From NCBI RefSeq assembly GCF_013085465.1, contig NZ_CP049838.1, positions 9,238,001 through 9,302,000 on the forward strand: a DNA stretch of 64,000 nucleotides, written 5' to 3'. The translations under genes were made by a program, and so were the position numbers. Shown here one piece after another: positions 15,701 through 51,913 of this stretch. Position 1 is the first letter of the stretch. Every line of letters starts with the position of its first letter. The notes under the pieces were generated by a model, which was given only the letters and a program-made list of their open reading frames with translations, was not told where the DNA came from and searched no databases. The stretch comes from Streptomyces asoensis. GTDB taxonomy: Bacteria; Actinomycetota; Actinomycetes; Streptomycetales; Streptomycetaceae.

Positions 15701-15723
15701 TTGTCAGTGGTCGCCGGTAAGTT
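15701..15723 (+). promoter_or_regulatory. RecA-NDp/PafBC-type DNA-damage promoter (perfect match)
   Basis: TTGTCAGTG at 15701-15709, an 8-base spacer, then TAAGTT at 15718-15723. This matches every defined position of the mycobacterial RecA-independent damage promoter consensus tTGTCRgtg-N8-TAnnnT, which PafBC activates. A start near 15730 would give a leader of about 80 bases before the SWIM GTG. The match is direct; regulation by damage is inferred. Confidence 0.75.
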
Positions 15724-15810
15724 CGTTGTTGTCGCCGCCGATCCGGCGCGGCAACCCCCCTGCGCTGCGCCGATTCGGCGTGCGGAGCCCTGTGCCGCAA
15801 AGGAGCTGGT

Positions 15811-17748
15811 GTGTTGTCCGACTGGGAGAATTCGAGTACGGCCCGGGTGGTGCCGCCCGCACGGCCCCGCAAGCTCGCCAAGGTCCCCTTCGTCGAACTG
15901 GCCGACGGACGCCTCCAGGGTGTGGTCTCCAGCGGCTCGGACATCGAGCGGGTGTACGTCTCGTCGGTCGCCGCCGGCACCTACGCCTTCGCGTGCAGCA
16001 CCAACAACAACCGTCCCTGCGGCGGCGCGCGGGGCTCGTTCTGCAACCACATCCGCGCGCTGATCACCGAGGCCGTGCTCCAGTACGGCGCCGACCGCGT
16101 CGCCCGCTACCTGCGCGTCGAGCCCATGGGCGCGGAGCCCGACGCCGCCGCCCTCACCGCCGCGATGACCGGCACCCACCCACCACAGGCGGACGGCAAG
16201 GCGGCCGCCGCACCCGTCTTCAGCCGGTTCCTGCGCCACCTGGCCTACCTGGAGCTGCCCCCGGTCACCGCCCCGCTCCCGGAGCTCCAGTGGTTCCCGC
16301 CGACCCGGGCCACGGACATCCCGCAGGCGCCCCGGAGCGAGCGCGGCACGAGCACGGAGGAACGCGCCGACCTGCTCACCGCACCCGTCGAGGGACTCGA
16401 CGAGGCCCTGGCGGCGGTCGACGCCTTCGACCGGACCCTGCTCGCCGGCCTGCTGCGCCCCCGGCCCGAACGGGTGGACGATCTCACCGTCCTCGCCCGA
16501 GCCGTCGCCGGCAGCCCGCTGGCCGCCCGGGTCGCCGAGGCCACCGCAAAGGCCGCGGCCGGAGCCGCGAGCGAGGACCACTTCGTCACCCTCGCCGCCG
16601 CCCGCACCGCCCTGTTCGGTGCCGTGCACGACGCCCTCACGGTCGGCGCCGACGAGGTGACCGGCCGCACGCGCGAGGAGCGGCCAGCCGAGGCTCCCGC
16701 CGCACGGCCGGCGGTGAACCTGCTGGCAGCCGCCCGCACCTGGCTGTCGGACCTCGCGCGCACCGGCTGGCAGGGCATCGACCACGAGCTGGCCGGCGGA
16801 GCCGCGCCCATCGTCTCCGCGATGCTGCCCGACCCCGAGCTGCGCCGACTGGCCACCCTGCTCGACGGATTCGCCGCCGAACTCGCCGCCTCCTGCCCCG
16901 GCGCCGCCCTGGACCGGATCCCCGCGCGCCGCTGGGGCGACCTGTGGTCCCGCGCCCTGCTGCTGACCATGCCCGGCGCCGCCGACCGGCCCGCCGTCAC
17001 GGCCGCCACCGGCCGTCTGCTGCCACTCGGCCTCGACCTGCACGAACACGCCACCGCCGCGCAGGCCCAGATCCACGCCGTGTTCGAACCCGCCGACGGC
17101 ACCGCGCCCCGGCTGGTCCGCGCGAGCGTCTCGGTGCCCAAGCCGGACACCGTCGTCGCGGCAGGCGTCTGGCAGCTGCTGCGGCCGCACCTGTCGCTGC
17201 TCACCGCCCTCGGCGAAGGCCGGGCGATGGACCTCGACGCCATGCCCCTCACCGACGAGGGCGACCTCATCTGGGACGACGCCCGGGCCCGTGCGGGCGA
17301 GCCCGCCGATGCCCTCGCCACCGCACGGGTCGTCCTGCCGACCGCCACCGCCCTGCCCACCGCGCCCCTGGACCGCCACCCCGCGCGCATCGCCGAGCCG
17401 GTGTTCCTGGAGGGCTACGACCGCGGACAGGACGGCGACACGCTCACCTTCACCGTCGCCGGACACACGCTCCCCGTCGACACCGACCGCATCCCGACCG
17501 CGAGCCCGCTCACACCCGAGGCCGTCGCGGCCTCGCGCGCCTGCGTCGGCCTGCTGCGCTGGGACGGCGGCGGCTTCCGTCTCCAGCCGCTCGCGGTGGA
17601 GACCACGGTGCGCAAGAAGGCCGTCGCCCTCCACGCGGGCGCATGGGCAGGCGGCACCACCGACAAGGCCGGCGTCCGGGCCGAGAAGGCCGCCACCGAC
17701 GCCGTGACCGTCCTGCGCGAGCGAGCGGGAAGGCTGCTGCGGAAATGA
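15811..17748 (+). CDS. SWIM zinc-finger protein
   Basis: This 645-residue protein has an N-terminal SWIM-type zinc site: Cys62, Cys70, Cys78 and His80, ending in the diagnostic CxH (CNH). A long Ala-rich helical region with no recognised catalytic motif follows. SWIM domains bind nucleic acid or protein. The family is regularly found with vWA, MoxR and DUF5682 genes, and all three follow here. The GTG start at 15811 has a strong AAAGGAG site. Its stop overlaps the next ATG as ATGA. A DNA-damage-type promoter lies 88 bases upstream. It probably recognises a target or substrate for the ATPase complex; this is inference from the gene set. Confidence 0.85.
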   Translation: MLSDWENSSTARVVPPARPRKLAKVPFVELADGRLQGVVSSGSDIERVYVSSVAAGTYAFACSTNNNRPCGGARGSFCNHIRALITEAVLQYGADRVARYLRVEPMGAEPDAAALTAAMTGTHPPQADGKAAAAPVFSRFLRHLAYLELPPVTAPLPELQWFPPTRATDIPQAPRSERGTSTEERADLLTAPVEGLDEALAAVDAFDRTLLAGLLRPRPERVDDLTVLARAVAGSPLAARVAEATAKAAAGAASEDHFVTLAAARTALFGAVHDALTVGADEVTGRTREERPAEAPAARPAVNLLAAARTWLSDLARTGWQGIDHELAGGAAPIVSAMLPDPELRRLATLLDGFAAELAASCPGAALDRIPARRWGDLWSRALLLTMPGAADRPAVTAATGRLLPLGLDLHEHATAAQAQIHAVFEPADGTAPRLVRASVSVPKPDTVVAAGVWQLLRPHLSLLTALGEGRAMDLDAMPLTDEGDLIWDDARARAGEPADALATARVVLPTATALPTAPLDRHPARIAEPVFLEGYDRGQDGDTLTFTVAGHTLPVDTDRIPTASPLTPEAVAASRACVGLLRWDGGGFRLQPLAVETTVRKKAVALHAGAWAGGTTDKAGVRAEKAATDAVTVLRERAGRLLRK

Positions 17749-19139
17749 GCGACCCCACGCCGGAAGCCGTACCCGACGACAACCGCCGCCAGGTCCTGTA
17801 CTGGCGGCTGCTGGCCCGCCTCTTCGACCCCGAGGAGCAGGCCGGCCTGGAATCGGCGAGCCTCGCCGTCATCGACGACATCGGCCTGCCGCCCGCGCTG
17901 CTGGACCCGCAGACCTCCGTCGACTCGATCGTCCAGCGCCACCCGGAACTGGCCGCGGAGTTCGACGGGTTGATGGTTCCCGACCCGGACACGGACACGG
18001 ACACGGGCACGGACACCGAGGCTGCGGCCGACGGCGACGCGCGTGATCGTGCGGCGGAGGTGCGGCGCGCGGCACTCGTGTCCAAGGTGCTGCTGAACGT
18101 CTTCTCCACCGGCTCGGGAGCCGTCAGCGCCGGACAGCTGTCCCGCTGGCAGAGCGACGCCGGCTGGCTGGAGCGCGCCCTCGGCTGCCGGCCGGGGGAG
18201 TTGCGCGGCGGTCGTGGCACGACACCCGACACCGGCGAGATCGTCCCCGCTCTCGGCCCGGAACTCGGCGCCATCGAGGCGGACCTCGTCCGGCGCATGC
18301 ATCTGCGCGAAGTGCTCGCCGACCCCGTGCTCGCCGCGCGGCTCACCCCGAGCATGTCGCTGATCGAGCAGTTGCTGCGCGACAAGAGCAATCTCTCCGG
18401 GGTCGCCCTCGCCAACGCCAAGTCGCTGATCCGCCGCTTCGTCGACGAGGTCGCCGAGGTGCTGCGCACCCAGGTGGAGAAGGCCACGGTCGGTGCGCTC
18501 GACCGCTCGGTCCCGCCCAAGCGCGTGTACCGCAACCTCGACCTCGACCGCACCATCTGGAAGAACCTCACCAACTGGAGCCCCGAAGAGGAACGCCTCT
18601 ACGTCGACCGCCTCTACTACCGCCACACCGCCCGCAGGACGACACCGCAGCGGCTCATCGTGGTCGTCGACCAGTCGGGCTCGATGGTCGACTCCATGGT
18701 CAACTGCACCATCCTGGCGTCGATCTTCGCCGGACTGCCCAAGGTGGACGTGCACCTCATCGCGTACGACACCCGAGCCATCGACCTCACCCCCTGGGTG
18801 AACGAGCCGTTCGAGGTGCTGCTGCGGACCAAGCTGGGCGGCGGCAACGACGGCCCCATAGCCATGGCCATGGCCCGCCCGAAGATCGCGGAGCCCAAGA
18901 ACACCGTGCTGGTGTGGATCTCGGACTTCTACGAGTTCGACCGCTCCCAGCCGCTGTTCGAGGGCATCGAGGAAGTCCACCGCTCCGGCGTGAAGTTCAT
19001 CCCCGTCGGCTCGGTGACCAGCTCCGGCCGGCAGGAGGTCAACCCCTGGTTCCGGGAGCGGTTCAAGACCCTCGGCACACCGGTGATCTCCGGCCACATC
19101 GACAAGCTCGTCCACGAACTCAAGACGTTCCTCACCTGA
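17745..19139 (+). CDS. vWA-domain protein (MoxR partner, CoxE-like)
   Basis: This 464-residue protein has a helical N-terminal half and a C-terminal von Willebrand A domain. The MIDAS metal site is intact: DQSGSM from about residue 308, a Thr in LRTKLGGGNDG and Asp in WISDFYEF. Such vWA proteins pair with MoxR AAA+ ATPases and relay metal-dependent target binding to the ATPase. A run of Asp-Thr dipeptides near residues 82-90 comes from a GACACG hexanucleotide repeat and may vary in length between strains. The ATG overlaps the SWIM stop. The next gene encodes the ATPase 44 bases later. Confidence 0.88.
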   Translation: MSDPTPEAVPDDNRRQVLYWRLLARLFDPEEQAGLESASLAVIDDIGLPPALLDPQTSVDSIVQRHPELAAEFDGLMVPDPDTDTDTGTDTEAAADGDARDRAAEVRRAALVSKVLLNVFSTGSGAVSAGQLSRWQSDAGWLERALGCRPGELRGGRGTTPDTGEIVPALGPELGAIEADLVRRMHLREVLADPVLAARLTPSMSLIEQLLRDKSNLSGVALANAKSLIRRFVDEVAEVLRTQVEKATVGALDRSVPPKRVYRNLDLDRTIWKNLTNWSPEEERLYVDRLYYRHTARRTTPQRLIVVVDQSGSMVDSMVNCTILASIFAGLPKVDVHLIAYDTRAIDLTPWVNEPFEVLLRTKLGGGNDGPIAMAMARPKIAEPKNTVLVWISDFYEFDRSQPLFEGIEEVHRSGVKFIPVGSVTSSGRQEVNPWFRERFKTLGTPVISGHIDKLVHELKTFLT

Positions 19140-19183
19140 CCCACCCCGTCCCTCGACACACGCATCTCTTGGAAAGGCCCTCG

Positions 19184-20308
19184 ATGACCGACCTGCTGCG
19201 CGCCCCCGCCGAGCTCAAGTACGCCGAGGAACTCGACTGGCTGGAGTCGATCGACGACAACCCCAAGCCGTTCTCCTGGCGGCTGTCCCCGAAGATGGTC
19301 CGTCTGTTCGTCCTGGGCTCCGAGCGCGCCGACGGCCTCGACCGGGAGATCGCGCCGAAGTGGTTCGGCGACCGCAGCTTCGTCGAGCGCTCCATCGTCA
19401 CCCTCGCCTCCGACCGGGGCCTGCTCCTGATCGGCGACCCCGGCACCGGAAAGAGCTGGCTGGCCGAGCTGCTGTCCGCCGCGATCTCCCGCAACTCCAC
19501 GCTGGTCGTGCAGGGCACGGCGGGCACCACCGAGGACCACATCAAGTACTCGTGGAACGTCTCGATGGTCATCGCCAAGGGCCAGTCACGCGAGTCGATG
19601 ATCCCCTCGCCGATCATGACCGCGATGGAGACCGGCTCGATCGGCCGCTTCGAGGAGCTCACCCGCTCCACCAGCGACGTCCAGGACGCGCTGATCTCGA
19701 TCCTCTCCGAGAAGTACATCTCCGTCCCGGAGCTGGGCAGCGACCAGGACAGCGACAACATCGTGTTCGCCAAGCCCGGCTTCTCGGTCATCGCCACCGC
19801 CAACAGTCGGGACCGGGGCGTCAACGACCTCTCCTCGGCACTCAAGCGCCGCTTCAACTTCGTGCGCATCCCGGTGGTGACGAACAAGAAGAGCGAGGCG
19901 GAGATCGTCCGGTTCCGCACCGAGGAACTGCTGCGCCGCCACCGGATCGAACTCGACGTCCCGCCGACCCTGCTGGACGTGCTGCTGCGCAGCTTCGCCG
20001 ACCTGCGGGCCTCCTCGGCCGCTGCCGGCAGCGACGACGAGAAGCTGGAGTCCGCCCTGTCCACGGCCGAGCAGATCGGCGTCCTCGAGGACGCCATCCT
20101 GCACAGCAACTTCTTCGGCGAACGCGCCCTCACCGCCCACACCCTCGCCTCCTCCCTCGTCGGTTCCCTGGCCCGGCGGGCACCGGAGGACCTCGCCATC
20201 CTCAACAAGTACCTGCACGGTGTCGTCGAACCGCGCAGCAAGGAGGAAGGGGGCTCCTGGCCGGAGTTCCTCGAGGGCGGCCGCGACGCGATCGCGACCC
20301 TGTCGTGA
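19184..20308 (+). CDS. MoxR-like AAA+ ATPase
   Basis: This 374-residue protein has Walker A GDPGTGKS at 84-91, a Walker B-like region with acidic pair (GSIGRFEELTRS), a sensor 1 Asn in VIATANSRDRG and an arginine-finger stretch SALKRRFNF. MoxR ATPases are remodelling machines working with vWA proteins in metal insertion, complex assembly or stress responses. The ATG at 19184 follows GGAAAGG. The stop TGA overlaps the following GTG as GTGA. The order SWIM, vWA, MoxR, DUF5682 argues for one complex. Confidence 0.9.
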   Translation: MTDLLRAPAELKYAEELDWLESIDDNPKPFSWRLSPKMVRLFVLGSERADGLDREIAPKWFGDRSFVERSIVTLASDRGLLLIGDPGTGKSWLAELLSAAISRNSTLVVQGTAGTTEDHIKYSWNVSMVIAKGQSRESMIPSPIMTAMETGSIGRFEELTRSTSDVQDALISILSEKYISVPELGSDQDSDNIVFAKPGFSVIATANSRDRGVNDLSSALKRRFNFVRIPVVTNKKSEAEIVRFRTEELLRRHRIELDVPPTLLDVLLRSFADLRASSAAAGSDDEKLESALSTAEQIGVLEDAILHSNFFGERALTAHTLASSLVGSLARRAPEDLAILNKYLHGVVEPRSKEEGGSWPEFLEGGRDAIATLS

Positions 20309-23100
20309 CCGGGACCCCCGAGGGCACGTTCACGGCCCTGCGCACGCAACTCCAGGACGCCGCCACCACGTTCGCCGACGGTCCCGCGGCGCTGGAGGGC
20401 ATCCTGCGAGGCATCGTCGACGACGTCGAACGCGCGGTGAGCGAACCCCTGGAGATCTTCCCCGTCTGCCACCACTCACCGGCCTCGGCCATCGCCATGG
20501 CACGCCGACTGCGCGAGAAGCAGCCGAGGACCGTCTACCTCGAGCTGTGCGAGGACATGGCGCCCCTCCTCACCGAGCTGCGCAACTGCCGTCTGCCGGT
20601 GGCGGTCCAGTCCTTCGCGAGCGAGATCGAGGGCTTCCCCGCCGACTGGGCACCGCTCTCGGTGGTCGCCCCGGTCACCGAGGCCTCCGCCGAGTACCAG
20701 GCCATCGCCTACGCGCTCGACACCCCGGGCGTCGAACTCGTCCTCGTCGACCGCTCCTCGGACCATGTCTTCCAGTGGGAGACCGGACCCGACGGCGAAG
20801 GCGATCCCGACGCGCCCGAGGCGGCGGAACAGACCGCCCTGCACGGCGACGCCGTCGGCGTGGAGATCGGCGACCTGCGCCCGCGCTTCGCCGAACTGGA
20901 GGAGCACCTGCTGCGCCACGGCCGGGTACGGCACTGGTCGGAGTGGTGGCACCAGTACGTCGAACTGCCCCTCGGCGACAGCGACCACGACACCTACCGC
21001 CAGGTGATGCTGCTCATCGGCAGCCTCTTCCGGCGCCTCGCCCCCGGCGACCCCCGCAAGGTACGGGTCGACGAGGACCGCGAGCGGTACATGTGGACCC
21101 GCATGCGCGAGCACCTCGCCGCCACCGGCGCCGACCCCGCCGACTGCCTCTACGTCTGCGGCGCCTTCCACGCGGCCAGCCGGGTCGCGGAGTTCGGCGT
21201 GCACGGCAGCGACACCTTCACCATCAGCCCGCCGAGCGGCACCAAGTGGCGGCACGGCCTGATCCCGTCCAGCCACGGCGCGATCGAGGCGCAGTTCGGA
21301 CTGGCCGCGGGCTCGGTGTCCATCGCCGCGACGGAATGGGCGAAGAACGTCAGGCGCACCGGCGTCCGCCCGTTCCGTCTGGAGGGCCAGGCAGGCACGA
21401 AGAAGAGCACGAAGCCGAGGAAGGCCCTCGCCCCGAGGGCCCCCGCATCGGCCGGCCCGGCCGCCGACCGGCTCACCGGTTTCCTCCAGCGGCCGCCCGC
21501 CCTCGACGCCCTCGACGAGGCCGAACTGCTCGGCTGGTCCGTGGAGATCGTGCGCGCCGCCCGCCGTAACGGCTACCTCGCCTCCACCGCCGATGCCATC
21601 GCCGTCTTCGAGACGTCGATCCTGTTGGCCGGGATGCGCGACCGCGCCAAGCCGACGCCGTACGACTTCCAGGACGCGGCCGTCACCTGCATCGAGAAGG
21701 ACGCCGTACCGGGCCGGCGGGACGTGGGCCGGCTGGTCGAGATCATGATGGGCGGCGACCGCGTCGGCCAGGTCGGCTACGACGCGCTGCCGCCGCTGGC
21801 CCGCGATGTGCACGACCGGCTAGCACCGCTGGACCTGAAGCTCCAGCAGCGCGGAGTGCAGCGCGCGCTGCTGGACATCGCCTCGCGGCCGGAACTCGCG
21901 CGCTGCTCCGACCTGTTGTGGATGCTGCGCCGGCTGCTGCCGCAGGGCGCGGCCCGGCCCATCATGGGCGAGCGCCGCCTCGGCGAACACCCCATCCAGG
22001 AGTCCTGGGACCTGGCCCTGGGCACCCACCAGCGCGCCCTCATCGAGCTGGGTTACGAGGGCGTCAGCATCGAGCAGGTTCTCGAACAGCGGCTGCGGCG
22101 CGCCGCGTACGCCCCGCAGGCGACGGCGGCGCAGGTCCTGGAGGCCGTCGAGGACGCCACGCTCTATCTGCGCAGCCGCCGTCTCGCCGACGAGCTCGGT
22201 ACCCGGGCCCTGGAGGTCCTGGCGAGCGAGCGCAGTGTCGACGGCGCGCCGGAGGTGCTGCGCCGGGTCCGTCGGCTGCTGGCCCACTACCGCACCGCCG
22301 AACCGGTGCTCCCGCCCTGGATCGAGTCCTTCGTCAAGACCGGCTACGCGCACTACTGCACCCTGCTGCCGACGGCGTTCACCGACGACGACGCGACCGT
22401 CCGCCAGGTCGCGGCGATGCTGGGCTTCCTGTTCGGCATGGAGGGCCTGGCGCTGTCCCTGGGCTGCGACCGCACCCAGCTCGAACTCGCCCTCGCCCAG
22501 TCCCACCCGACCGAGCCGTCCCGCACCGCCCTGCTGTGGGCGGCACAGACCCACCTGGGCACCCTGCCGAGGACGGCACTGCGGGCGCGCTGCGCGGAAC
22601 TGCTCGGCAACCCGTTGGTGGTGCCCGCCTACCCGCGCTATCTCAGCGGGTTCGTGCACGCCCTGGAACCGGTCCCGGGCCTGGCCGACTTCGTCGTCGA
22701 GGCCGTGTCGAACGCGTTCGCCCTGCTCCCCGACGCGGTGCTGCTGCCCTGGCTGCCGACCCTCATCGGCACCCTGCGGGCCGGTGGTGCCGAACAGGCC
22801 CCGCTGCTGATCCGCGAGGCGGGCCGGGTCTTCCCCGCCCGGCTCACCGAGCTGGACACCTGGGTACCGCCGTGGCGGCTCCCGCAGGAACCGCCACGCA
22901 TGCCGGTGGAGTCGGCGGCGAGCACCGCGGGCGGCCTGCCGCTCCTCGCCGCGCACCCGGCGACCTGCGATGCGCTGGCGGACCTGCTGGGCTGCGACGG
23001 GGCGTGGGAGAGCCCCGACGTCGGGTCGTCGGGAGCGGCCCTTCTCGCCCGGTATCCGCAGACCGCGCGGGCGTTGGAGGCGCTGGAGGCTGTCAGCTGA
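20305..23100 (+). CDS. DUF5682-family protein
   Basis: This 931-residue protein has an N-terminal motif VCHHSPASA (His56, His57), the counterpart of the family's HHGP-type start, followed by TVYLELCEDMAPLL and a histidine/acid-rich block (VCGAFHAASR, IPSSHGAIEAQFG). A long helical C-terminal half follows. Members occur with MoxR and vWA genes. The enzymatic role is not established; conserved His and acidic residues suggest a metal- or hydrolase-like N-terminal domain. The GTG start overlaps the MoxR stop. The 3' end overlaps the convergent repeat-protein gene by 8 bases. It is the probable effector or substrate-handling arm of the operon, which is inference. Confidence 0.85.
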   Translation: MTGTPEGTFTALRTQLQDAATTFADGPAALEGILRGIVDDVERAVSEPLEIFPVCHHSPASAIAMARRLREKQPRTVYLELCEDMAPLLTELRNCRLPVAVQSFASEIEGFPADWAPLSVVAPVTEASAEYQAIAYALDTPGVELVLVDRSSDHVFQWETGPDGEGDPDAPEAAEQTALHGDAVGVEIGDLRPRFAELEEHLLRHGRVRHWSEWWHQYVELPLGDSDHDTYRQVMLLIGSLFRRLAPGDPRKVRVDEDRERYMWTRMREHLAATGADPADCLYVCGAFHAASRVAEFGVHGSDTFTISPPSGTKWRHGLIPSSHGAIEAQFGLAAGSVSIAATEWAKNVRRTGVRPFRLEGQAGTKKSTKPRKALAPRAPASAGPAADRLTGFLQRPPALDALDEAELLGWSVEIVRAARRNGYLASTADAIAVFETSILLAGMRDRAKPTPYDFQDAAVTCIEKDAVPGRRDVGRLVEIMMGGDRVGQVGYDALPPLARDVHDRLAPLDLKLQQRGVQRALLDIASRPELARCSDLLWMLRRLLPQGAARPIMGERRLGEHPIQESWDLALGTHQRALIELGYEGVSIEQVLEQRLRRAAYAPQATAAQVLEAVEDATLYLRSRRLADELGTRALEVLASERSVDGAPEVLRRVRRLLAHYRTAEPVLPPWIESFVKTGYAHYCTLLPTAFTDDDATVRQVAAMLGFLFGMEGLALSLGCDRTQLELALAQSHPTEPSRTALLWAAQTHLGTLPRTALRARCAELLGNPLVVPAYPRYLSGFVHALEPVPGLADFVVEAVSNAFALLPDAVLLPWLPTLIGTLRAGGAEQAPLLIREAGRVFPARLTELDTWVPPWRLPQEPPRMPVESAASTAGGLPLLAAHPATCDALADLLGCDGAWESPDVGSSGAALLARYPQTARALEALEAVS

Positions 23101-24660: not shown

Positions 24661-24686
24661 GCGGCGAATCCCCCCAGGTCACGATC

Positions 24687-24713
24687 GGGCCCCCTGTCGA
24701 GGACAGGGGGCCC
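24687..24713 (-). terminator. Strong terminator after the GH43 gene
   Basis: Perfect 12-bp stem GGGCCCCCTGTC / GACAGGGGGCCC with a 3-base loop, 44 bases beyond the GH43 stop and 27 bases before the repeat-protein start. Confidence 0.85.
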
Positions 24714-24756
24714 ATGACCTTAACCGCCCGGCCGGATCGAGGGCCAGGCGTCCGAG

Positions 24757-40717: not shown

Positions 40718-41689
40718 TCACTCGCCCGCGGCCACGTACCGGTCGTCCGGGCCGTCCGCGTCCTCCCGGCCCGACACGTCCACCTTCACGCCGTAGGGCT
40801 CCAGAGCCTGCCGTATCCGCTCCGCCATCGCCTCGGACAGGTAGTGGTGGTGCAGGTCCAGCTCCTGGAGATGCACCAGCGGCTGACCGCTCAGCAGAGC
40901 CGCGGCGCCCGTGTCGGACAGGGTGCCGCGGCCCAGGTGCAGGGCCGTCAGCCGGGCCACCACGGGCGCCGCGGCTACGGCGGCGGCCACCTCGTCCTGA
41001 TTGTCGCCGTTCTGGAGACCCAGGCGGCGCAGGGCGGGCAGCCGGGAGCCGTCCAGGATCGGCGCGAGGTCGGCCACGGTGGTGGTACGGCCGTACCACT
41101 CCGCGCCCAGCCACAGGTCCAGATGCTCCAGCGCGGGCAGCTCCGATGCGGCGACCCCGTGCACCACCTCGGCCGGCAGCCCGCCGTTCTCGAAGCGGAG
41201 GATCCGCAGACTCTCATGGCGCAACGGTGTGAACTCCAGCCCCGGACCGCCGCCGAAGCCACCGCCCGAACCGCGAACGGCGAGCTCCTCCAGCCCCGGG
41301 TAGGCGGCGAGGAACGGGCTGACGTCGCCCTGGACGATCCAGGAGAGCTCGCACTCCTCGAATTCGAGGTCCGCGAGATAGAGGGCCCGAAGGCCGGTCA
41401 GCCGGTCCGCCGCACCGGCGAGGCGCTCCGCTACCTCCTCGGGCCCGTCGCCGGCGTCGTGCTCGCTGCCGTAGGCGCCCGCCCCGAGGACGAGGGCGCG
41501 CACCCGCGAGGGGTCCACGGTGTCCAGGAAACGGTTCCAGCACTCGTCGAAGTCCTCCGGTTCGTTCTCGTGCCGGAAGATTTTCCAGGCGACGGTCTCC
41601 TCCGCCGGCAAGGCCGCGGCGTCCACGCCGGGCAGGGGGAAGTCGTAGACCGGCAGGCCGTGCAGTTCCGAGATGTGGCTGATGGTCAA
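40718..41689 (-). CDS. STM4015-family leucine-rich repeat protein (stand-alone paralogue)
   Basis: This 323-residue repeat protein has LRR-like units such as LEHLDLWLG, LRRLGLQNG, LTALHLGRG and LQELDLHHHYLSE. It is clearly paralogous to the protein encoded at 51964-52923: both share LDLWLG, AAPVVARL or SAPVVARL, GAAALL and the C-terminal RYVA(A/V)GE. The TTG start at 41689 was chosen because GGAAGG precedes it and the conserved TISHISELHGLPVYDF follows. It has no cluster partners here, but a DNA-damage-type promoter lies upstream, as at the cluster. It may act as a spare or alternative recognition subunit. Confidence 0.82.
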   Translation of the reverse strand: MTISHISELHGLPVYDFPLPGVDAAALPAEETVAWKIFRHENEPEDFDECWNRFLDTVDPSRVRALVLGAGAYGSEHDAGDGPEEVAERLAGAADRLTGLRALYLADLEFEECELSWIVQGDVSPFLAAYPGLEELAVRGSGGGFGGGPGLEFTPLRHESLRILRFENGGLPAEVVHGVAASELPALEHLDLWLGAEWYGRTTTVADLAPILDGSRLPALRRLGLQNGDNQDEVAAAVAAAPVVARLTALHLGRGTLSDTGAAALLSGQPLVHLQELDLHHHYLSEAMAERIRQALEPYGVKVDVSGREDADGPDDRYVAAGE

Positions 41690-41751
41690 GGCAGGAACCT
41701 TCCGAGAGCGGACGGCGGCCGGCACCTCACAGCCCGGCCTGTGCGGCGTCC

Positions 41752-41774
41752 TTCTTACCAACTCCCACCGACAG
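41752..41774 (-). promoter_or_regulatory. RecA-NDp/PafBC-like promoter of the STM4015 paralogue
   Basis: On the minus strand CTGTCGGTG (41774-41766), an 8-base spacer, then TAAGAA (41757-41752). It keeps the TGTCRGTG core, exact spacing and TA of the damage consensus, but the first T and last T differ. It lies 63 bases before the TTG start. Confidence 0.55.
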
Positions 41775-43232: not shown

Positions 43233-43233
43233 C

Positions 43234-43256
43234 GGCACCTCACGAGGGCCGGTGCC
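43234..43256. terminator. Short hairpin between convergent genes
   Basis: 6-bp stem GGCACC / GGTGCC with an 11-base loop in the 33-base gap between the M23 stop and the protease-hydrolase stop. It is a weak candidate for a two-way terminator. Confidence 0.35.
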
Positions 43257-43265
43257 ACGGCCGGC

Positions 43266-45296: not shown

Positions 45297-45297
45297 G

Positions 45298-47151
45298 TCA
45301 GTTCACCGTCCTTCCGGCGGTGTGCCACGGCTGGAACGCGTTCGTCAGGCCCGCGAGCGCCGTGCGCAGCTCCGGGTGATGGCGCAGCAGCACCGTGATC
45401 ATGCTGTTGTCGTCGATCCAGGCCATACCGGCCTTGGAGTACACCTCGGGCGTGTAGTACTCGGTGAAGAAGCGATCGCTGTTCAGCCGGCGCGAGGCCA
45501 TCAGCACGAAGATGCGGAACGCCGTGTCGCTGAAGGCGAATCCGGCCGGCAGCCGCTCCGCGTACAGCCCGACCGTGAGATCGACCTTCTCGACGTCGCC
45601 GTCGTAGAGCCGCTCGATCTGCTCAGCCCACCGCGGATTGTCCGTCAGCTCCGCGAAGGTCTTCGCCGGCCTCAGCCGCAGCAGTCGCCGGAACTCGTTG
45701 TAGCGAGGGACGCCCAGCTCACGGGAGCGCAGGATGTCGGTGGCGGCGAGGTCCTGAAGACGGCCGTCGGGACGCTCGAACTCCTGGAGGAATCGGGGGA
45801 AGTTGTGCAGGGTTACCAGTCCGGGGTGCAGGGTGCCGAAGCTGTAGAGCAGATCGGCCGTCCCGGTGGTCTCCAGGACCTTCAGCGCACCGGGGCCCGA
45901 GATGTCACGGAGGGTGCAGTGCCGCAGGGTCGCGTCGTCGGCGGCGGAGCGCAGGTGCCATTCGTCCCGGATCAGGGGGTGCATGCGGTAGACGGCGACG
46001 AACTCCTCCGTGAGGGAGTACGGGACGCCGTAGTGGTCGGTCTCGCCCCCGGGTATACCGCTGACGACCTCGCTGCGGCTGATCCGGCCGAAGAGGTTGT
46101 GGACGCGCTCGCCCGCGAGGCCCCACCAGTTGGCGCGCAGGGCCGTGACGGTGGTGGGGTGACTGATCACGGCAGGGGTCCACTCCACGGTGTGGATCTT
46201 TGCGAGCAGTGCGGCGTTGATCAGACGGGCGCGCTGGAACAACTCCTCATCGCCCCAGGACGGGTACGCGCCGTGCAGGTGGTCGCAGATCGCGTTGTGT
46301 TCCCTGGCGAACAGGTGCTGCATCATCGCCAGACCCAGCCAGAAGCCGGGCACCCGCGAGGGATCGCGGGAGGGGTCCGAGGGGAACGGGGACTGCTCGT
46401 CGTCCCACAGGTGCACCTTGCCCAGCTCGCCGGTGCGCATCAGGCGCTGCTCGGTCTCGTTCGACCCGTAGAGCTGCGAGGCGTCCCACCAGTGGGAGGA
46501 GACGTTCACCCGGGTGTCGGGCGTCCCGGCCGGCGCCGCGGGGTCGCGGGTCGGGTCGTCCGGTGTCCGCATGATCCGCATGGGCTGTTCCGGCCACGGG
46601 TCGTCGTCCATGAGCGGGAGTTCCCAGGGCCGCTCCGTGGGGCTCGTACCGTGGCTGAACCAGTCGCGGACCATGAACTGGAGCCAGGCGGCGACCAGCG
46701 AGTTGACCGACTCCGCCGGGGTCAGCCCGTCCCGGGTGAGCAGCGCGCGGCTGACCTCGCGGGGGCTCGGCCGCGACAGGACGTCCTCGGGCGCGGCCGG
46801 GGCGATCCGGTCCAGCGGGATGTTCCGGCCGAAGCGGGTGCCCGCCATGCCCGTCCGAGGCTCGCCGAGGTCGTTGTGGCTGCCGTCGGCGGTCCGGTTG
46901 ACCTTGTGGCTCTCGGACGGGGGCGCCGGATCGGGGAGATCGGCCGAGGGCAGACGACCTGTGTCGTGGAGGTTCTTCTGCCGGAGCCTGACGCGCAGCC
47001 CGAGAAGGGTCAGCAGACCCGGCAGCACGGGCAGCCTGTCCCAGCCGACGCGCCGGTCGACGTACTCTGCGCCGCCGGTGACGATCCGCCAGGGCAAGGA
47101 CGTACGGTATCCGGCCGCGGGGCGCCGTGCGGCGCGTCGTCGCTCGCTCAT
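45298..47151 (-). CDS. Animal-type haem peroxidase
   Basis: This 617-residue protein is of the animal haem peroxidase superfamily (myeloperoxidase/alpha-dioxygenase/PGHS fold). Visible landmarks are WFSHGTSP with a candidate distal His, SSHWWDASQLYGSNETEQ, FAREHNAICDHL, IHTVEWTPAV and VYRMHPLIRDEW with a candidate proximal His. Bacterial members oxidise halides or add oxygen to fatty acids. There is no signal peptide. The ATG at 47151 follows CAGGAGCAACGTG. It is the first gene of a two-gene operon with the protease-hydrolase. The lipase-like partner and a fatty-acid-type peroxidase would suit release and oxidation of lipids, which is speculation from context. Confidence 0.87.
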   Translation of the reverse strand: MSERRRAARRPAAGYRTSLPWRIVTGGAEYVDRRVGWDRLPVLPGLLTLLGLRVRLRQKNLHDTGRLPSADLPDPAPPSESHKVNRTADGSHNDLGEPRTGMAGTRFGRNIPLDRIAPAAPEDVLSRPSPREVSRALLTRDGLTPAESVNSLVAAWLQFMVRDWFSHGTSPTERPWELPLMDDDPWPEQPMRIMRTPDDPTRDPAAPAGTPDTRVNVSSHWWDASQLYGSNETEQRLMRTGELGKVHLWDDEQSPFPSDPSRDPSRVPGFWLGLAMMQHLFAREHNAICDHLHGAYPSWGDEELFQRARLINAALLAKIHTVEWTPAVISHPTTVTALRANWWGLAGERVHNLFGRISRSEVVSGIPGGETDHYGVPYSLTEEFVAVYRMHPLIRDEWHLRSAADDATLRHCTLRDISGPGALKVLETTGTADLLYSFGTLHPGLVTLHNFPRFLQEFERPDGRLQDLAATDILRSRELGVPRYNEFRRLLRLRPAKTFAELTDNPRWAEQIERLYDGDVEKVDLTVGLYAERLPAGFAFSDTAFRIFVLMASRRLNSDRFFTEYYTPEVYSKAGMAWIDDNSMITVLLRHHPELRTALAGLTNAFQPWHTAGRTVN

Positions 47152-47565
47152 CACGTTGCTCCTGTTCCTGCACGAAAACGGCGCACGCCGTCGTGGACAA
47201 CGGCCAAGGAACGAAGGGGCGAAGGAGCGAAGGAGTCGAAGCCTGCGGCAACCGCCTGTCCTGGCCGATCGGCCGGGGTCGGGCGAGGGCCGCCGACGGC
47301 GACCGGCCGAGCCCACCTTCGGTACCGGCGCGCAAATACCCTCAAAACACTCCGAATACCATGTTATGAGAGCCGCCGCTCACCCGCACCTCAAGGACCG
47401 GAGTCTGCGCACGACGGCGGTACCGTCAATTGTCCGATTTGCCTCGGGGGCGGGCAACTCGATCACCCGAAATCGGCAGGGGGCGCCGACGCGCACCCCG
47501 CCACCCTGTCGGCCTAGTGTGGGAAGAGGGGTGACTCTTCGTCCGGGCCGACATGGAGGACAGCC
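47152..47565. other. Divergent promoter region
   Basis: This 414-base gap lies between the haem peroxidase and the metalloprotease genes. It contains three near-identical 8-base units (GCGAAGGA type) around 47206-47236 and a relatively AT-rich patch at 47333-47370 that may hold promoters for both directions. No gene was found in it. Confidence 0.45.
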
Positions 47566-48432
47566 GTGATGAGCAAGGTCGCCACCAACACCTTCCAGAC
47601 GTATCGAGCGGTCGCCAGTTTCGAGCGGGCCAGAGAGATAGCCCGCACGACGTCACCGTTCACCATCGAAATCCGCTTCCTCGGCGGACTGACGGGCACT
47701 CAGCAGGACGCCTTCGCCGCGGCGGCCGACCGTTGGGCGAAGGTCATCGTCGGGGATCTGGACACCGCGCTCGTCAACGGCGACGTCATCGACGACCTGC
47801 TCATCGAGGCCGAAGGGGTCACCATCGACGGTCCCGGCCGCGTACTGGGGATGGCCGGTCCCACCGACTTCCGCGACGACTCCGCGCAGTTCGGCGCGTT
47901 CCTGCCGGCGAAGGGCGTGATGAGGTTCGACGCCGCCGATCTCACCCAGATGGAAGCGGACGGCACGCTCGTCGATGTGATCACCCACGAGATGGGACAC
48001 GTCCTGGGTATCGGCACCCTGTGGACGGCGTTCGGCCTCCTCAAGGGCGCCGGCACCCAGAACCCCACTTTCGTCGGTGCCCGCGCGATGGCCGAGTTCG
48101 CCGCACTCCTCGGTGAGGAGGACCCGGCCCCGGTGCCGGTCGCCAACTTCGGCGGGCCCGGTACCCAGGACAGCCACTGGCGTGAGGCGGTTTTCGTCAA
48201 CGAACTCATGTCGCCGTTCATCTCCGGAGCCGGCAACCCACTGAGCCGGATGACCGCGGCGAGCCTCGGCGACCTCGGCTACCAGGTCGACCTCGACGGC
48301 GCCGAACCCTACACACTGCCGATTCTGCTCCAGATCGCCAGGGAGGGCGCCCTCGTACCGCACACGGCGCCACTCGGTGACGGCATGATGCTTCCGGTGG
48401 TGCCGACGCGGTTGCCCGCCGCGACTCCGTAG
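47566..48432 (+). CDS. Leishmanolysin-like (M8) metallopeptidase without signal peptide
   Basis: This 288-residue zinc protease has HEMGHVLGIG (His141, Glu142, His145), a distant third ligand His204 in DSHWRE and a Met-turn NELMSP (Met215). This is the M8 arrangement, in which an insertion separates the HExxH motif and the third His. The beginning (MSKVATNTFQTYRAVASFERAR) has no hydrophobic segment, so Sec export is not predicted, unlike most relatives. GTG 47566 or ATG 47569 could start it; both suit the GGAGG site. It is divergent from the protease/peroxidase operon. Confidence 0.85.
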   Translation: MMSKVATNTFQTYRAVASFERAREIARTTSPFTIEIRFLGGLTGTQQDAFAAAADRWAKVIVGDLDTALVNGDVIDDLLIEAEGVTIDGPGRVLGMAGPTDFRDDSAQFGAFLPAKGVMRFDAADLTQMEADGTLVDVITHEMGHVLGIGTLWTAFGLLKGAGTQNPTFVGARAMAEFAALLGEEDPAPVPVANFGGPGTQDSHWREAVFVNELMSPFISGAGNPLSRMTAASLGDLGYQVDLDGAEPYTLPILLQIAREGALVPHTAPLGDGMMLPVVPTRLPAATP

Positions 48433-48449
48433 GCGTTCCCGCCCGAAGA

Positions 48450-48468
48450 GGTCCGCCGTGGGCGGACC
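48450..48468. terminator. Bidirectional terminator between convergent genes
   Basis: Perfect 8-bp stem GGTCCGCC / GGCGGACC with a 3-base loop, in the 48-base gap between the M8 peptidase stop and the GNAT stop. Confidence 0.7.
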
Positions 48469-48480
48469 GAGCCCTCGCGG

Positions 48481-49407
48481 TCATCCCAGGACGGCCTCCC
48501 AGGTGTCCACGGCGTAGTGCAGGGCCATGCCGTGGCGCGCGTACAGCCCGGGCGCGCCGGTCGCGTTGGAGGTGTCCACACCGAGCCCGACGGTGTCCCG
48601 GCCCCGGGCGGCGAAGGCTGCGAAGGCGTGCCGCAGCAGCAGCCCGGCCAGCCCGCCTCCCCGGTCCTCGCGCAGCACGCCGATGCTGCGGATCCACCCC
48701 ATCGCCGCACGGTCGTCACGGGCCATCAGGAACCCGGCGTCCCCGGACGCGTCGGTGCCGGCGATCCACACGAGGGACCAGTCGAGCCCCGTCGCGTCCA
48801 CGTCGTGCAGCCACTGCTCGTAGCCGCGCGGCTGGAAGTCGAAGTGCTCGGCGAAAGCGGCCTGGTAGAGCTCGTGGACGCGGACCCGGTCCGCCTCGGT
48901 GGCGCAGGACCGCAGCCGGACCCCGGCGGGCAGCGCCGGCGGCTGGTCCCCGGCCCGGTCCAGGGGGCGGCGCAGCACGTGATACCGCCGTACGACGGAC
49001 CAGCCGCGGCCGCGGAGCAGTGCGGTGTCGAGTGTGGGCGCCGCGTTGAGATGCAGATGCACCACGGCCCGCCCGGCCCCGTTCTCCCGCGCCTTCTCCA
49101 GCGCCCGGGTCTCCATCGCCGCCAGGACGAGCTGCCCCGCCTCCTGCCGGTCGGGCAGGACGTAGTGGTCGATGTCGACGCGTTCGCCGCCCGACTCGTC
49201 CCACAGCAGCCCGTAGACGACCAGCCGGTCCCCGTCGAACGCGAGCCAGGAGTCCCGCTCCAGATCCGTCTCGGGATGCCTCAGATCGGCCTCGACGGTG
49301 TGCAGGTCCGTCTCGGGCCGGCCGATCTCGATGAGGTCGATCTCGTTGAGGAGACCGGTGACGGCAGGCGCGTCGGCGAGGGCGGCGGGACGCAGGAGGT
49401 AAGGCAT
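48481..49407 (-). CDS. Tandem GNAT N-acetyltransferase
   Basis: This 308-residue protein has two GNAT-like halves. The C-terminal one (about 160-305) shows IRSIGVLREDRGGGLAGLLLRHAFAAF, the acetyl-CoA pyrophosphate-binding segment, and VDTSNATGAPGLYARHGM. The N-terminal half (1-150) is more divergent. The family resembles mycothiol-synthase-like double GNATs, but the substrate cannot be told. It is divergent from the FAD-subunit gene. Confidence 0.85.
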   Translation of the reverse strand: MPYLLRPAALADAPAVTGLLNEIDLIEIGRPETDLHTVEADLRHPETDLERDSWLAFDGDRLVVYGLLWDESGGERVDIDHYVLPDRQEAGQLVLAAMETRALEKARENGAGRAVVHLHLNAAPTLDTALLRGRGWSVVRRYHVLRRPLDRAGDQPPALPAGVRLRSCATEADRVRVHELYQAAFAEHFDFQPRGYEQWLHDVDATGLDWSLVWIAGTDASGDAGFLMARDDRAAMGWIRSIGVLREDRGGGLAGLLLRHAFAAFAARGRDTVGLGVDTSNATGAPGLYARHGMALHYAVDTWEAVLG

Positions 49408-49531
49408 GGCGCCAGGGTCCGGGGGAGGGGAGTCGGCCGCAACGCAATTTCACGTTGCGCAAGGTGCAGCCATGAGCCCTGTATGCGCCCCCGCGCGCCT
49501 GGGCAGAATCCGTTCTGCCATTGATCATGCG

Positions 49532-49574
49532 GGTGAGTGACACGGGGACACACGATGACACCGTGTCACTCACC
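49532..49574. promoter_or_regulatory. 14-bp perfect inverted repeat
   Basis: Arms GGTGAGTGACACGG (49532-49545) and CCGTGTCACTCACC (49561-49574) are perfect inverted repeats around 15 bases. The site lies just before the FAD-subunit start and within the gap to the divergent GNAT gene. It could be a repressor operator for either gene or a leader RNA hairpin. Confidence 0.6.
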
Positions 49575-49605
49575 ACGAACTTCCAGGGAAGGCAGGTCGG
49601 TTGTC

Positions 49606-50328
49606 GTGCAGTTGCGTCTTCCCTCCTCCATATCCGAAGCCCAGCGGTGTCTGGCCGAGGGAGCGGTACCGGTAGGAGGCGCCACCCTCGTGTGGGCCGG
49701 CTGGCAGCGGGACGGCTTCCCCGAGCAGGCCGTGTCGCTGCGCAACGTGCCGGAGGCCGGCACGGTCGGCCCCGAGGAACTCGGCGGGGCCGTGCTGCTG
49801 AACCGCGTCGACGCGACGGTGCCCGAGGCGCTGCACCGGGCGGCCTCCGGCGTGGGCACGGGCGCCGTGCGCCGGGCCGCCACGGTGGGCGGCAACATCG
49901 TCGGCAGCACCCTGCGCTGTCTGCTCCCGGCGGCCCTCGTCCTCGACGCCCGGGCCACCGTCCTGGAACCCGACAGCGTCTACGACACCGATCTGACCGA
50001 ACTGCTGGCGAAGCGTCACGTACTGCTCGCCCTGCGCTGGCGCGCACCCCTGGTCAGCGGCTACCGCAAGCTGGAGGGCGAGGCGGGCGGCCCGCCGCCC
50101 CTCGTCGTCGCCGCCGCGGTGCACGCCGACGGCGACAGCCCCCGTGACCTGCGGGTGGCCGTACGCGACGGCTACGAGGTGTTCAGCGAGAGCACGCCGT
50201 ACGACCCGGACCCCGAACAGGTCCTGCACGCCCTGGCGGGCACCGACCTGGATGCCCTTCCCGCCACCGCCCGGGACGCGGTCCACGCCCAGATCACCGA
50301 CGTACTGGCCCGCGCGGCCGAAGGCTGA
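49606..50328 (+). CDS. Orphan molybdopterin-dehydrogenase FAD-binding subunit
   Basis: This 240-residue protein resembles the medium (CutM/XdhB-type) subunit of xanthine/CO dehydrogenases. The N-terminal part has AVPVGGATLVWAGW and the FAD-binding loop VRRAATVGGNIVGST. It normally passes electrons between an iron-sulphur subunit and FAD. Neither the iron-sulphur nor the molybdenum subunit is nearby. GTG 49606 begins conserved QLRLPSSISEAQ. Longer starts at 49537 and 49555 would place an operator-like inverted repeat inside the coding region and are less likely. Confidence 0.82.
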   Translation: MQLRLPSSISEAQRCLAEGAVPVGGATLVWAGWQRDGFPEQAVSLRNVPEAGTVGPEELGGAVLLNRVDATVPEALHRAASGVGTGAVRRAATVGGNIVGSTLRCLLPAALVLDARATVLEPDSVYDTDLTELLAKRHVLLALRWRAPLVSGYRKLEGEAGGPPPLVVAAAVHADGDSPRDLRVAVRDGYEVFSESTPYDPDPEQVLHALAGTDLDALPATARDAVHAQITDVLARAAEG

Positions 50329-50352
50329 GGCCCGGCCACGAGGACCTCCGGA

Positions 50353-51405
50353 TCACGTCTCCCGCTCGGGCGCGTACACCTCCGCCGCCAGTCCGAAGGT
50401 CCAGGCGACCCCCGCCCGCGCCGTGCGGGTCGCCGGCGGTACCCGCAGCCAGTAGGTGCGTCGCGTCCCGTCCGGCTCCGGTGTGGAGTTGAGGACCTCC
50501 ACCATGACGACGGGCTCGTCATCCGGGAGGTCGATACGCCATAGGGTGCCCGTCTCGTCGCGGTGGACGTGACGTGCCCCGGAGTCCGCCAGATAGCGGT
50601 CGTATCCGTAGTACTCCAGCATGACCCGGCGAAGTTCGGCGTTCTCCTCGGACCGGATCCGGTCCGAGGTGAGCGTCGGCAGTTCGGCGAGGAACCCGGC
50701 CGGGACCGGCATGCCGCGCCAGGCGTGCAGGGCGAAGCCGTCGGGGTACGCCAGTGCCGGACCGTCCCCGTGGTCGAGCCGGCCCGCCTCGTCGCGGTGC
50801 AGGGCGACGGGACGCTCGCAGACCACCGCCACCCGCGCGAACGGCCACCACCAGCCGGCGTGGCGACTCACCTCGGCCAGCCCCTCGAGCGGGCCCCGGT
50901 CCGTCGGGAACGCGGCGAGCCACGGCGCGTCGTGCTGACCGAGCACGGCGTCCAGCAGCACCAGCCGGACCTCCGCGGCCTCCTTCCCCGTGTCCCCGCC
51001 GGCCAGTTCCTCCAGCACCCCGGCGCGGATCCGGTCGACGAGCGCCTGCGTCGTGTCCCACAGGAGCCCGCCGGTCGCCGCCCAGTGCGCCGCCCAGCCC
51101 GCCGCGCCCAACCGGGTGTGCAGCCGCTGCCGTTCGCCGGCCCACGGAGTGCTGCGGACCGCCTCACGCACACTGGCGCCCTTGTCCGCCAACTCCCGCA
51201 CCAGCGTGACCGCCGCCCGCGGTGAAGCGGCCCACACCACGCGCTCCGGATCCGGCAGACCGGCCTGGCGGTAGGCCCGGCGCACGCCGTCCTCGGCGGC
51301 CGCGCGGTCGGCGGGCACGGCCGCCGCGGCACAGGCGCGCCAGCCACGGACGTCGTCGAAGGACGTACCCTCCACCGCTGCCCCGGGAATGTCCGTGGTC
51401 GTCAT
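50353..51405 (-). CDS. DUF6745-domain protein
   Basis: This 350-residue protein shows the pattern of the DUF6745 group: helical N-terminal two-thirds, then CERPVALHRDEAGRLDHGDGPALAYPDGFALHAWRGMPVP in about residues 200-240 and GTLWRIDLPDDEPVVMVEVLNSTPE. No catalytic motif is recognised. ATG 51405 was chosen for its GGAGGGGCAG site; an ATG eight codons earlier is possible. It is the second gene of a pair expressed from a DNA-damage-type promoter, divergent from the STM4011-4015 cluster. Confidence 0.75.
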   Translation of the reverse strand: MTTTDIPGAAVEGTSFDDVRGWRACAAAAVPADRAAAEDGVRRAYRQAGLPDPERVVWAASPRAAVTLVRELADKGASVREAVRSTPWAGERQRLHTRLGAAGWAAHWAATGGLLWDTTQALVDRIRAGVLEELAGGDTGKEAAEVRLVLLDAVLGQHDAPWLAAFPTDRGPLEGLAEVSRHAGWWWPFARVAVVCERPVALHRDEAGRLDHGDGPALAYPDGFALHAWRGMPVPAGFLAELPTLTSDRIRSEENAELRRVMLEYYGYDRYLADSGARHVHRDETGTLWRIDLPDDEPVVMVEVLNSTPEPDGTRRTYWLRVPPATRTARAGVAWTFGLAAEVYAPERET

Positions 51406-51447
51406 CTGCCCCTCCGTCACCTCGGTCACCCGCTCCTCACCCGCTCC

Positions 51448-51774
51448 TCAGTCCGCGACGATCCGTACGGATCCGGGCACGTACTCCCGCTGCCGGATCA
51501 CCCGGTACCAGCCCTTCGGCAACGCGATCGCCGCGTGCTCCTCATGGACCACCCGGCCGCCCTGGGGAAGGTGCAGCAGCAGCGGACCGAACGGCCCGGG
51601 CTCCCGCACCAGATCGCCCGGGCCCACCACCGCGTGGGCGTGCCCGGTGACCTCGCCCAGTGCCAGCACGAGCCGGCCCCGCGCGTCCCGCCGCTCCTTC
51701 GGCGCGACCGCCACGTGCGGTGGCACCGCCTCCTCAGTCACGGGCACGATCAGCACGTCTCCCTGCCGGAACAT
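51448..51774 (-). CDS. Small protein paired with DUF6745
   Basis: This 108-residue protein opens with MFRQGDVLIVPV and contains GEVTGHAHAV and LPKGWYRVIRQREYVP. It looks like a compact beta-rich domain. The family usually lies beside DUF6745 genes. Function is unknown. The strong GGAGGGGAGAGCC site fixes the ATG at 51774. It is first in the operon, 50 bases from the damage-type promoter, with the DUF6745 gene 42 bases downstream. Confidence 0.75.
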   Translation of the reverse strand: MFRQGDVLIVPVTEEAVPPHVAVAPKERRDARGRLVLALGEVTGHAHAVVGPGDLVREPGPFGPLLLHLPQGGRVVHEEHAAIALPKGWYRVIRQREYVPGSVRIVAD

Positions 51775-51823
51775 GGCTCTCCCCTCCCCGCCGGATGCTT
51801 CGCGCACCGGCCTCATGACGAAG

Positions 51824-51846
51824 ACGGTACGGACCACCACTGACAA
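51824..51846 (-). promoter_or_regulatory. RecA-NDp/PafBC-type promoter of the DUF6745 pair (perfect match)
   Basis: On the minus strand TTGTCAGTG (51846-51838), 8 bases, then TACCGT (51829-51824). All defined positions of the consensus tTGTCRgtg-N8-TAnnnT match. It lies 50 bases before the ATG at 51774. Confidence 0.75.
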
Positions 51847-51899
51847 CGCCCCCGAACCGATGTTCCGAACCGAGGCCCCGCCGAGGGGTGTTGTCAGTG
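51838..51899. repeat. Inverted repeat joining two divergent promoters
   Basis: CACTGACAACGCCCC (51838-51852) and GGGGTGTTGTCAGTG (51885-51899) are inverted with one mismatch. Both arms carry outward-facing TTGTCAGTG boxes. Between them CCGAACCGA occurs twice (51852-51860, 51865-51873). Confidence 0.8.
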
Positions 51900-51913
51900 C
51901 CGCTTGGTAGAAC
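51891..51913 (+). promoter_or_regulatory. RecA-NDp/PafBC-type promoter of the STM4015-4011 cluster
   Basis: TTGTCAGTG (51891-51899), 8 bases, then TAGAAC (51908-51913). Only the last base of the -10 differs from the TAnnnT consensus. It lies 51 bases before the cluster's first ATG. Confidence 0.65.

Follow-up and report, generated by a model that had tools for sequence, protein, structure and literature searches.

RecA-NDp-type promoter sites before unstudied operons of Streptomyces, including a seven-gene STM4015/DUF6745 system

Four RecA-NDp-type sites in the window

We analyzed a 64,000-nucleotide stretch of DNA, referred to here as the window, which covers positions 9238001-9302000 of the 10,044,300-base chromosome of Streptomyces asoensis and whose proteins have their nearest relatives in Streptomyces, with identities of up to 97%. 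A first-pass annotation had noted four intergenic matches to the RecA-NDp promoter type in this window and had read them as a local regulon. Our analysis argues that the four sites most likely belong not to a local regulon but to a Streptomyces DNA-damage regulon of the RecA-NDp (PafBC) type that extends over the whole genome. Of greatest interest are the unstudied operons that would belong to this regulon across Streptomyces, and most of all the seven-gene STM4015/DUF6745 system.

The searches used a strict consensus (TTGTCRGTG-N8-TANNNT), a core (TGTCRGTG-N8-TA), and, as control, the reversed pattern. A pattern search confirmed the four claimed sites in position and orientation:

15701..15723, forward strand: RecA-NDp-type site 1, TTGTCAGTG-N8-TAAGTT; exact match to the strict consensus, final-T subclass
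41752..41774, reverse strand: RecA-NDp-type site 2, TGTCGGTG-N5-TTGGTAAGAA; TG-extended, two mismatches (first T and last T)
51824..51846, reverse strand: RecA-NDp-type site 3; exact match to the strict consensus, final-T subclass, faces p108-DUF6745
51891..51913, forward strand: RecA-NDp-type site 4, TTGTCAGTG-N5-TTGGTAGAAC; TG-extended, one mismatch (last T), faces the STM4015 operon

The core is retained in all four sites, and sites 2 and 4 fit RecA-NDp in relaxed form only. Each site is intergenic, is oriented in the same direction as the gene that follows, and ends 87 (site 1, start at 15811), 62 (site 2, start at 41689, a TTG), 49 (site 3, start at 51774), or 50 bases (site 4, start at 51964) before the predicted start, in line with the 50-90 bases given previously. 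With up to two mismatches to the strict consensus allowed, seven matches were found in the window against 1.6 expected, a number reached in none of 100 shuffles. The near-matches at 17644, 25499, and 29039 lie within predicted genes and lack the TA, as had been stated. The first-pass annotation had also spoken of four operons with genes of unknown role. The common promoter type stands, but two of the sites serve one system and a third serves its paralogue; the functions are indeed unknown, but most of the genes belong to named families.

A VWA-MoxR operon at site 1

Site 1 precedes the following genes:

15811..17748, forward strand: protein of 645 amino acids with an N-terminal Cys/His cluster, SWIM-like by our own reading only
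17745..19139, forward strand: VWA_CoxE protein of 464 amino acids, YehP relative (PF05762, 4.2e-29; YehP 32% identity, 1.7e-47)
19184..20308, forward strand: MoxR-type AAA_5 ATPase of 374 amino acids, YehL relative (PF07728, 1.7e-38; YehL 41% identity, 8e-83)
20305..23100, forward strand: protein of 931 amino acids, weakly similar to YehM (2.2e-6 over 104 columns) and to a chromosomal DUF5682 protein (2.5e-8)

The operon is related to yehLMP of Escherichia coli, the MoxR protein corresponding to YehL, the VWA protein to YehP, and, weakly, the 931-amino-acid protein to YehM. Its first protein differs: no similarity of it to YehQ of E. coli could be detected, and it has no SWIM profile match. 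The Pfam scan gave no match for the 931-amino-acid protein and none, up to an E value of 10, for the 645-amino-acid protein; we dropped the SWIM label for the latter, as the same scan finds SWIM in YehQ. The site-1 operon, being of the yehLMP kind, probably specifies an AAA+ remodelling machine. PADLOC models, compared with 10 proteins, gave weak matches only, the best being that of the MoxR ATPase to mad8 (5e-6). A term search of the available text of a paper on vWA-MoxR ternary conflict systems (PMC7159879) returned no SWIM, DUF5682, DUF4132, YehL, or DNA damage. In the literature search, two papers naming at least two of the yehLMPQ genes came up.

The 645-amino-acid protein is present in 27 of 121 genomes. 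Before its orthologues the core of site 1 was exact in 24 of the 27 cases and had one mismatch (CANNNT for TANNNT) in the other 3, compared with 0 of 27 for the reversed control, and hence the conservation of site 1 is firmly supported.

Two side observations concern this region. The 645-amino-acid protein matches as a single piece in 7 of the 27 genomes and as at least two pieces in 20, as if its N- and C-terminal parts were separate genes. Divergent from the operon, at 13290-15452 on the reverse strand, lies a gene for an NB-ARC/TPR protein with a weak helix-turn-helix match, which is faced by none of the four sites.

The STM4015/DUF6745 genes at sites 3 and 4

The intergenic region that holds both site 3 and site 4 has p108 (our label) and DUF6745 to its left and STM4015-4014-4013-4012-4011 to its right:

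51448..51774, reverse strand: p108, 108 amino acids, predicted all-beta, with conserved GExTGHxH, HxEH, and QRE motifs
50353..51429, reverse strand: DUF6745 protein of 358 amino acids (PF20530, 5.8e-117)
51964..52923, forward strand: STM4015-family leucine-rich-repeat (LRR) protein of 319 amino acids ending in WRYVAVGE (NF038076, 1.2e-124, above cut-off; weak LRR matches)
52935..54104, forward strand: STM4014-family ATP-grasp-like protein of 389 amino acids (NF038074, 6e-140; ATP-grasp and RimK-family matches below cut-off)
54097..54939, forward strand: STM4013/SEN3800-family sulfatase-like hydrolase of 280 amino acids (NF038075, 1.3e-128; PF00884, 4.4e-7)
54936..56300, forward strand: STM4012-family radical SAM protein with HemN_C, 454 amino acids (NF006067, 5e-196; PF04055, PF06969)
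56311..57228, forward strand: STM4011-family radical SAM protein of 305 amino acids (NF038073, 8.1e-127)

The five STM families thus stand in one operon, each above its NCBIfam cut-off. STM4015 was found in 58 of the 121 genomes, in 56 of them above cut-off, and 52 operon loci were analyzed (fragments G050 and G068 were left out). The core of site 4 was exact in 49 of these loci and had one mismatch in the remaining 3, while the reversed control with up to one mismatch occurred in 1 of 30; the conservation of site 4 is therefore also firmly supported. STM4014 was present in all of the first 50 operon loci, and each of 20 long loci had the full set of five STM genes. On the other side of the intergenic region, we analyzed 30 of the 55 DUF6745 matches in Streptomyces. 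p108 was present in every one of these loci, and in 29 its divergent neighbour was STM4015. Exact sites pointed toward STM4015 in 28 loci and toward p108 in only 6, which leaves site 3 much less supported than sites 1 and 4.

The structure model of p108 was confidently all-beta, with a predicted local distance difference test (pLDDT) score of 84.9, and that of the DUF6745 protein reached 69.1; a fold search with both models gave no match in the PDB at E ≤ 0.001. The invariant His, Glu, and Arg residues of p108 suggest a metal or catalytic site.

We also considered a LexA-like sequence (CGAAC-N4-GTTCC) at 51853-51866, between sites 3 and 4. It has one mismatch, was equalled in 0 of 300 shuffles, and was the best of three regions. 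A box with up to two mismatches was found in 4 of 29 related loci against 2.8 expected, and the sequence, which is not conserved, was left unused.

A stand-alone STM4015 paralogue at site 2

The gene behind site 2 encodes a second member of the STM4015 family:

40718..41689, reverse strand: stand-alone STM4015 paralogue of 323 amino acids ending in RYVAAGE (NF038076, 2.7e-106, above cut-off)

We looked for the site before 15 further STM4015 genes that we took as stand-alone. These include the first gene of a tandem pair (G113, no site) and the lone copies G026 (none), G069 (none), and G096 (one mismatch). Exact sites were found before 3 of the 15 genes, sites with one mismatch before 5, and none before 7; like site 3, site 2 is much less supported than sites 1 and 4.

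Two promoter subclasses

The sites fall into two subclasses, newly described here, which either end in T or have a TG-extended -10 element. Sites 1 and 3 are of the first kind and sites 2 and 4 of the second. Elsewhere in the genome, 58 of 61 intergenic sites (see below) end in T, and none of the 58 has TG at positions 15-16; 2 of the 3 sites without the final T do have it. All of 50 STM4015-operon sites have TG and lack the final T, as do two further sites. This pattern fits an extended -10 (TGNTA) that would substitute for the last base of the -10 element.

Evidence for a genome-wide damage regulon

The genome contains 32 matches to the strict pattern and none to its reversed form, and 75 matches to the core against 5 for the reversed core. 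Subtracting the four sites in the window and one terminal-repeat copy left 70 core sites for analysis. The first-pass annotation had proposed a genome-wide count of intergenic and coding matches as a check; with our own codon-usage gene caller this gave 61 intergenic sites and 9 within predicted genes, and 54 of the 61 lie at most 250 bases before a predicted start. The genes downstream include recA, uvrA, uvrB, ruvC, the uracil-DNA glycosylase gene (ung), priA, radA, dnaB, and rpsF, and further dinG and the genes of a UvrD-type helicase and a macrodomain protein, all named by our own reading of the translations. The genes for PafA (PF03136), for PafC (HTH_PafC), and, next to PafC, for a PafB-like WYL protein lie together in the genome, and a helicase gene near them also has a strict site. 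The strict pattern was present in each of 61 sampled genomes of the genus, 11-44 times per genome and 1507 times in total against 6 reversed matches; the label Streptomyces was inferred for these genomes from protein relatedness.

The excess of the motif, the repair genes among its targets, the PafBC genes, and the conservation before orthologues are our grounds for assigning the four sites to a genome-wide regulon. According to passages of PMC8223512 and PMC6789036, RecA-NDp occurs in Actinobacteria and is linked to PafBC, which works via the housekeeping polymerase (PMC11804915, in part). Most likely, DNA damage would activate PafBC, housekeeping RNA polymerase would then use these promoters, and PafBC-dependent transcription of the VWA-MoxR operon, the seven-gene system, and the stand-alone STM4015 paralogue would rise. 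The S. asoensis sites resemble the mycobacterial RecA-NDp/PafBC regulon in the motif (TTGTCRGTG-N8-TANNNT), in their intergenic placement, in the repair targets, and in pafBC lying beside pafA. They differ in that the targets include VWA-MoxR, DUF4132, WGR, and STM4015 systems and in the second subclass, in which a TG-extended -10 replaces the final T.

Some points weigh against this reading. Exact counterparts are limited to 6 of 30 loci for site 3 and to 3 of 15 genes for site 2, and the available text of PMC9380542 reports from an initial search in S. venezuelae that the PafBC motif of M. smegmatis is not conserved. The same text states that a LexA-independent damage response in Streptomyces remains to be shown. 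Our counts in all 61 sampled genomes disagree with that motif statement at the level of the genus. The negative statement, together with the fit of most -10 elements to a general sigma-70-like form, could also be taken to mean that the sites are ordinary sigma-factor promoters that resemble RecA-NDp and lie outside damage control. We consider this improbable, since the TTGTCRGTG element is common to recA, uvrA, uvrB, and other repair genes of the genome, and RecA-NDp precedes the UV-inducible macrodomain gene SCO6735 of S. coelicolor (PMC5087735, in part). With the motif counts, the subclasses, and the conservation before unstudied operons, a PafBC-type response in Streptomyces becomes directly testable, and a list of targets is provided.

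Local clustering of the sites

The first-pass annotation saw in the window a neighbourhood enriched in damage-induced systems, and a genuine local island, in which the operons stand together because they act together, has some points in its favour. For this one 64-kb window, taken as given, four core sites have a Poisson chance of 0.0015. The site-1 protein and STM4015 also co-occur above expectation over the 121 genomes (20 of 27 versus 38 of 94; P 0.0023 in a Fisher test that makes no correction for kinship), and they are linked in three other genomes as well (G062, G110, and G013). However, the density of sites is not above what chance yields somewhere in the genome. When 75 sites were placed at random, 15% of trials had four within 36.3 kb somewhere, and 52% had four within 64 kb. 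If the divergent pair is treated as a single site, three fell within 36.3 kb in 86% of trials, and the chance of such a cluster ranged over 0.86-0.997. Five other 36.3-kb stretches hold at least three sites, one of them four. Of the 20 sampled genomes with both proteins, 10 have the site-1 protein and STM4015 on different contigs and 6 have them on one contig at a distance of over 400 kb; in only 4 are they at most 40 kb apart. We therefore rejected a local regulon as the main account, on the scan statistic and for want of conserved linkage, and regard an island as very unlikely; membership of the four sites in the genome-wide regulon is the better description.

Other members of the regulon and the E. 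coli yeh families

A second chromosomal operon, SWIM (PF04434, 3.4e-6)-DUF5691, is divergent from MoxR-DUF5682. An exact site precedes it in all 20 loci analyzed, which represent 20 of the 29 genomes matching DUF5691. DUF4132 genes carry the site as well. All 29 DUF4132 loci comprise 15 with an exact site, 3 with one mismatch, and 11 with none, and 9 of these 11 encode long proteins, the start of which was probably not reached. Among the 17 loci of short-form genes (54-106 bits), the site is exact in 13 and has one mismatch in 2 more. A WGR-domain gene with a strict site is also present in the genome.

In E. coli K-12, the genes for WGR (yehF) and DUF4132 (yehI) and the yehLMPQ genes lie near one another. 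As the WGR, DUF4132, and VWA-MoxR genes described here have sites, the regulon appears to gather families that E. coli keeps together. A further likeness to the yehF-yehI-yehLMPQ genes is that WGR (yehF family) and DUF4132 (yehI family) genes of the genome carry strict sites; the difference is that in Streptomyces these families form separate operons.

Three minor observations were made on such sites. Opposite to the SWIM-DUF5691 operon, TTGTCAGTG-N8-CANNNT is found in 20 of 20 loci, possibly a CA variant of the -10 element that strict searches miss. A SUKH-4-family gene (locus L231, 1618-2838, reverse strand) has a strict site. An identical strict site occurs near both chromosome ends, at 3976-3998 and 10040303-10040325, probably within a terminal inverted repeat.

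The seven-gene set outside Streptomyces

Published information on the seven genes is scarce: our literature search found only incidental mentions of STM4011-4015, in two papers, and no mention of DUF6745. Part of PMC3844500 lists a predicted sigma-54 site at Salmonella STM4013. The sites described above are a regulatory clue for the STM4011-4015/DUF6745 system. The recurrence of the seven-gene set in six phyla is newly described here. A scan with the DUF6745 proteins of Deinococcus and Methylobacterium gave 24 loci in other phyla. p108 adjoins DUF6745 in all 24. The five STM families accompany the pair in full in 13 loci and in part in 6, and none of them is present in 5. Taken together with plasmids, complete sets were found in Actinomycetota, Deinococcota, Chloroflexota, Planctomycetota, Verrucomicrobiota, and Alphaproteobacteria, phyla being assigned by us from record titles and taxonomy lines. 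The gene orientations vary among loci, which argues for a functional set. For plasmids, 11 of 26 matching records were fetched, of which two unannotated ones were not analyzed. All seven families are present in 5 of the 11 plasmid loci (three from Deinococcus, one from Methylobacterium, and one from Streptomyces); a Bacteroides record is partly annotated, and an S. albidoflavus record has STM4013 only.

Other results weigh against our account of the system. The set is incomplete or absent in 11 of the 24 loci, several of which are short contigs. Plasmid copies in Paenibacillus and Salmonella have the five STM genes and no p108-DUF6745 in the stretch covered. A search for the alphaproteobacterial LexA box before p108 in seven Methylobacterium/Methylorubrum loci gave no exact match and one with a single mismatch. 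The system resembles the Salmonella STM4011-STM4015 set as defined in NCBIfam, with all five families above cut-off. It differs from this set in the joined p108-DUF6745 pair, absent from the Salmonella plasmid stretch covered, and in its damage-type promoters.

The trial for damage boxes in other phyla covered seven motifs on 11 regions. Palindromes like the radiation/desiccation response motif (RDRM) were found before p108 in two of three Deinococcus plasmid loci (L151, 10276-10377; L153, 10340-10484), with 3 and 5 mismatches, a level reached by 2-3% of 60 shuffles; the third locus has none. As damage boxes, these palindromes are suggestive only. As a separate observation, a conserved promoter-like GGTTGACC lies upstream of p108 in the seven Methylobacterium/Methylorubrum loci, followed downstream by GGGCTA in 6 of them.

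A possible carrier role for STM4015

STM4015 ends in an invariant Glu, which we describe here for the first time. It was found in 26 of 26 genes from the plasmid and other-phyla loci and in all of the best 120 of 3068 homologues, 146 of 146 sequences overall, and is preceded by a variable, mostly acidic linker. This terminal Glu, the ATP-grasp-like protein, the two radical SAM proteins, and the hydrolase led us to a carrier model. STM4015 would be the carrier or substrate, and STM4014 would extend the last glutamate of its RYxAxGE-like C-terminal tail. The two radical SAM proteins and the STM4013 hydrolase would then process the extended tail, and p108-DUF6745 may act on the product or its target. 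The system is comparable to RimK-type C-terminal glutamate ligases in that STM4014 is ATP-grasp-like with a weak RimK-family match and has a partner with an invariant C-terminal Glu. Against the model, the similarity of STM4014 to RimK-type ligases is weak (0.0023) and far below cut-off; the system also differs from these ligases in the accompanying two radical SAM proteins and hydrolase.

We regard the carrier model as tentative and rather unlikely to be correct. The same doubt attaches to its broader form, in which STM4015 would represent a new class of genetically encoded carrier (an LRR leader with an RYxAxGE-like core) under a Streptomyces damage promoter, within a regulon that also gathers the yehF, yehI, and yehLMP families. 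If this were true, the machines of the yehF, yehI, and yehLMP families and the STM4015 carrier would be parts of one damage response.

Alternatively, the STM4015 system could be a sensor or a defence system that damage induces. The LRR protein would then recognize a ligand, the enzymes would be effectors, and the C-terminal Glu would have a structural role or act as a degradation signal. Partner binding is usual for LRR folds, and the scattered distribution of the system, plasmids included, is consistent with this alternative, which we consider possible though on the unlikely side. PADLOC models showed nothing convincing for STM4015, STM4014, STM4013, DUF6745, and p108 (STM4012 and STM4011 were outside the scan). 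A sensor role alone does not explain why the terminal Glu is kept in all 146 sequences.

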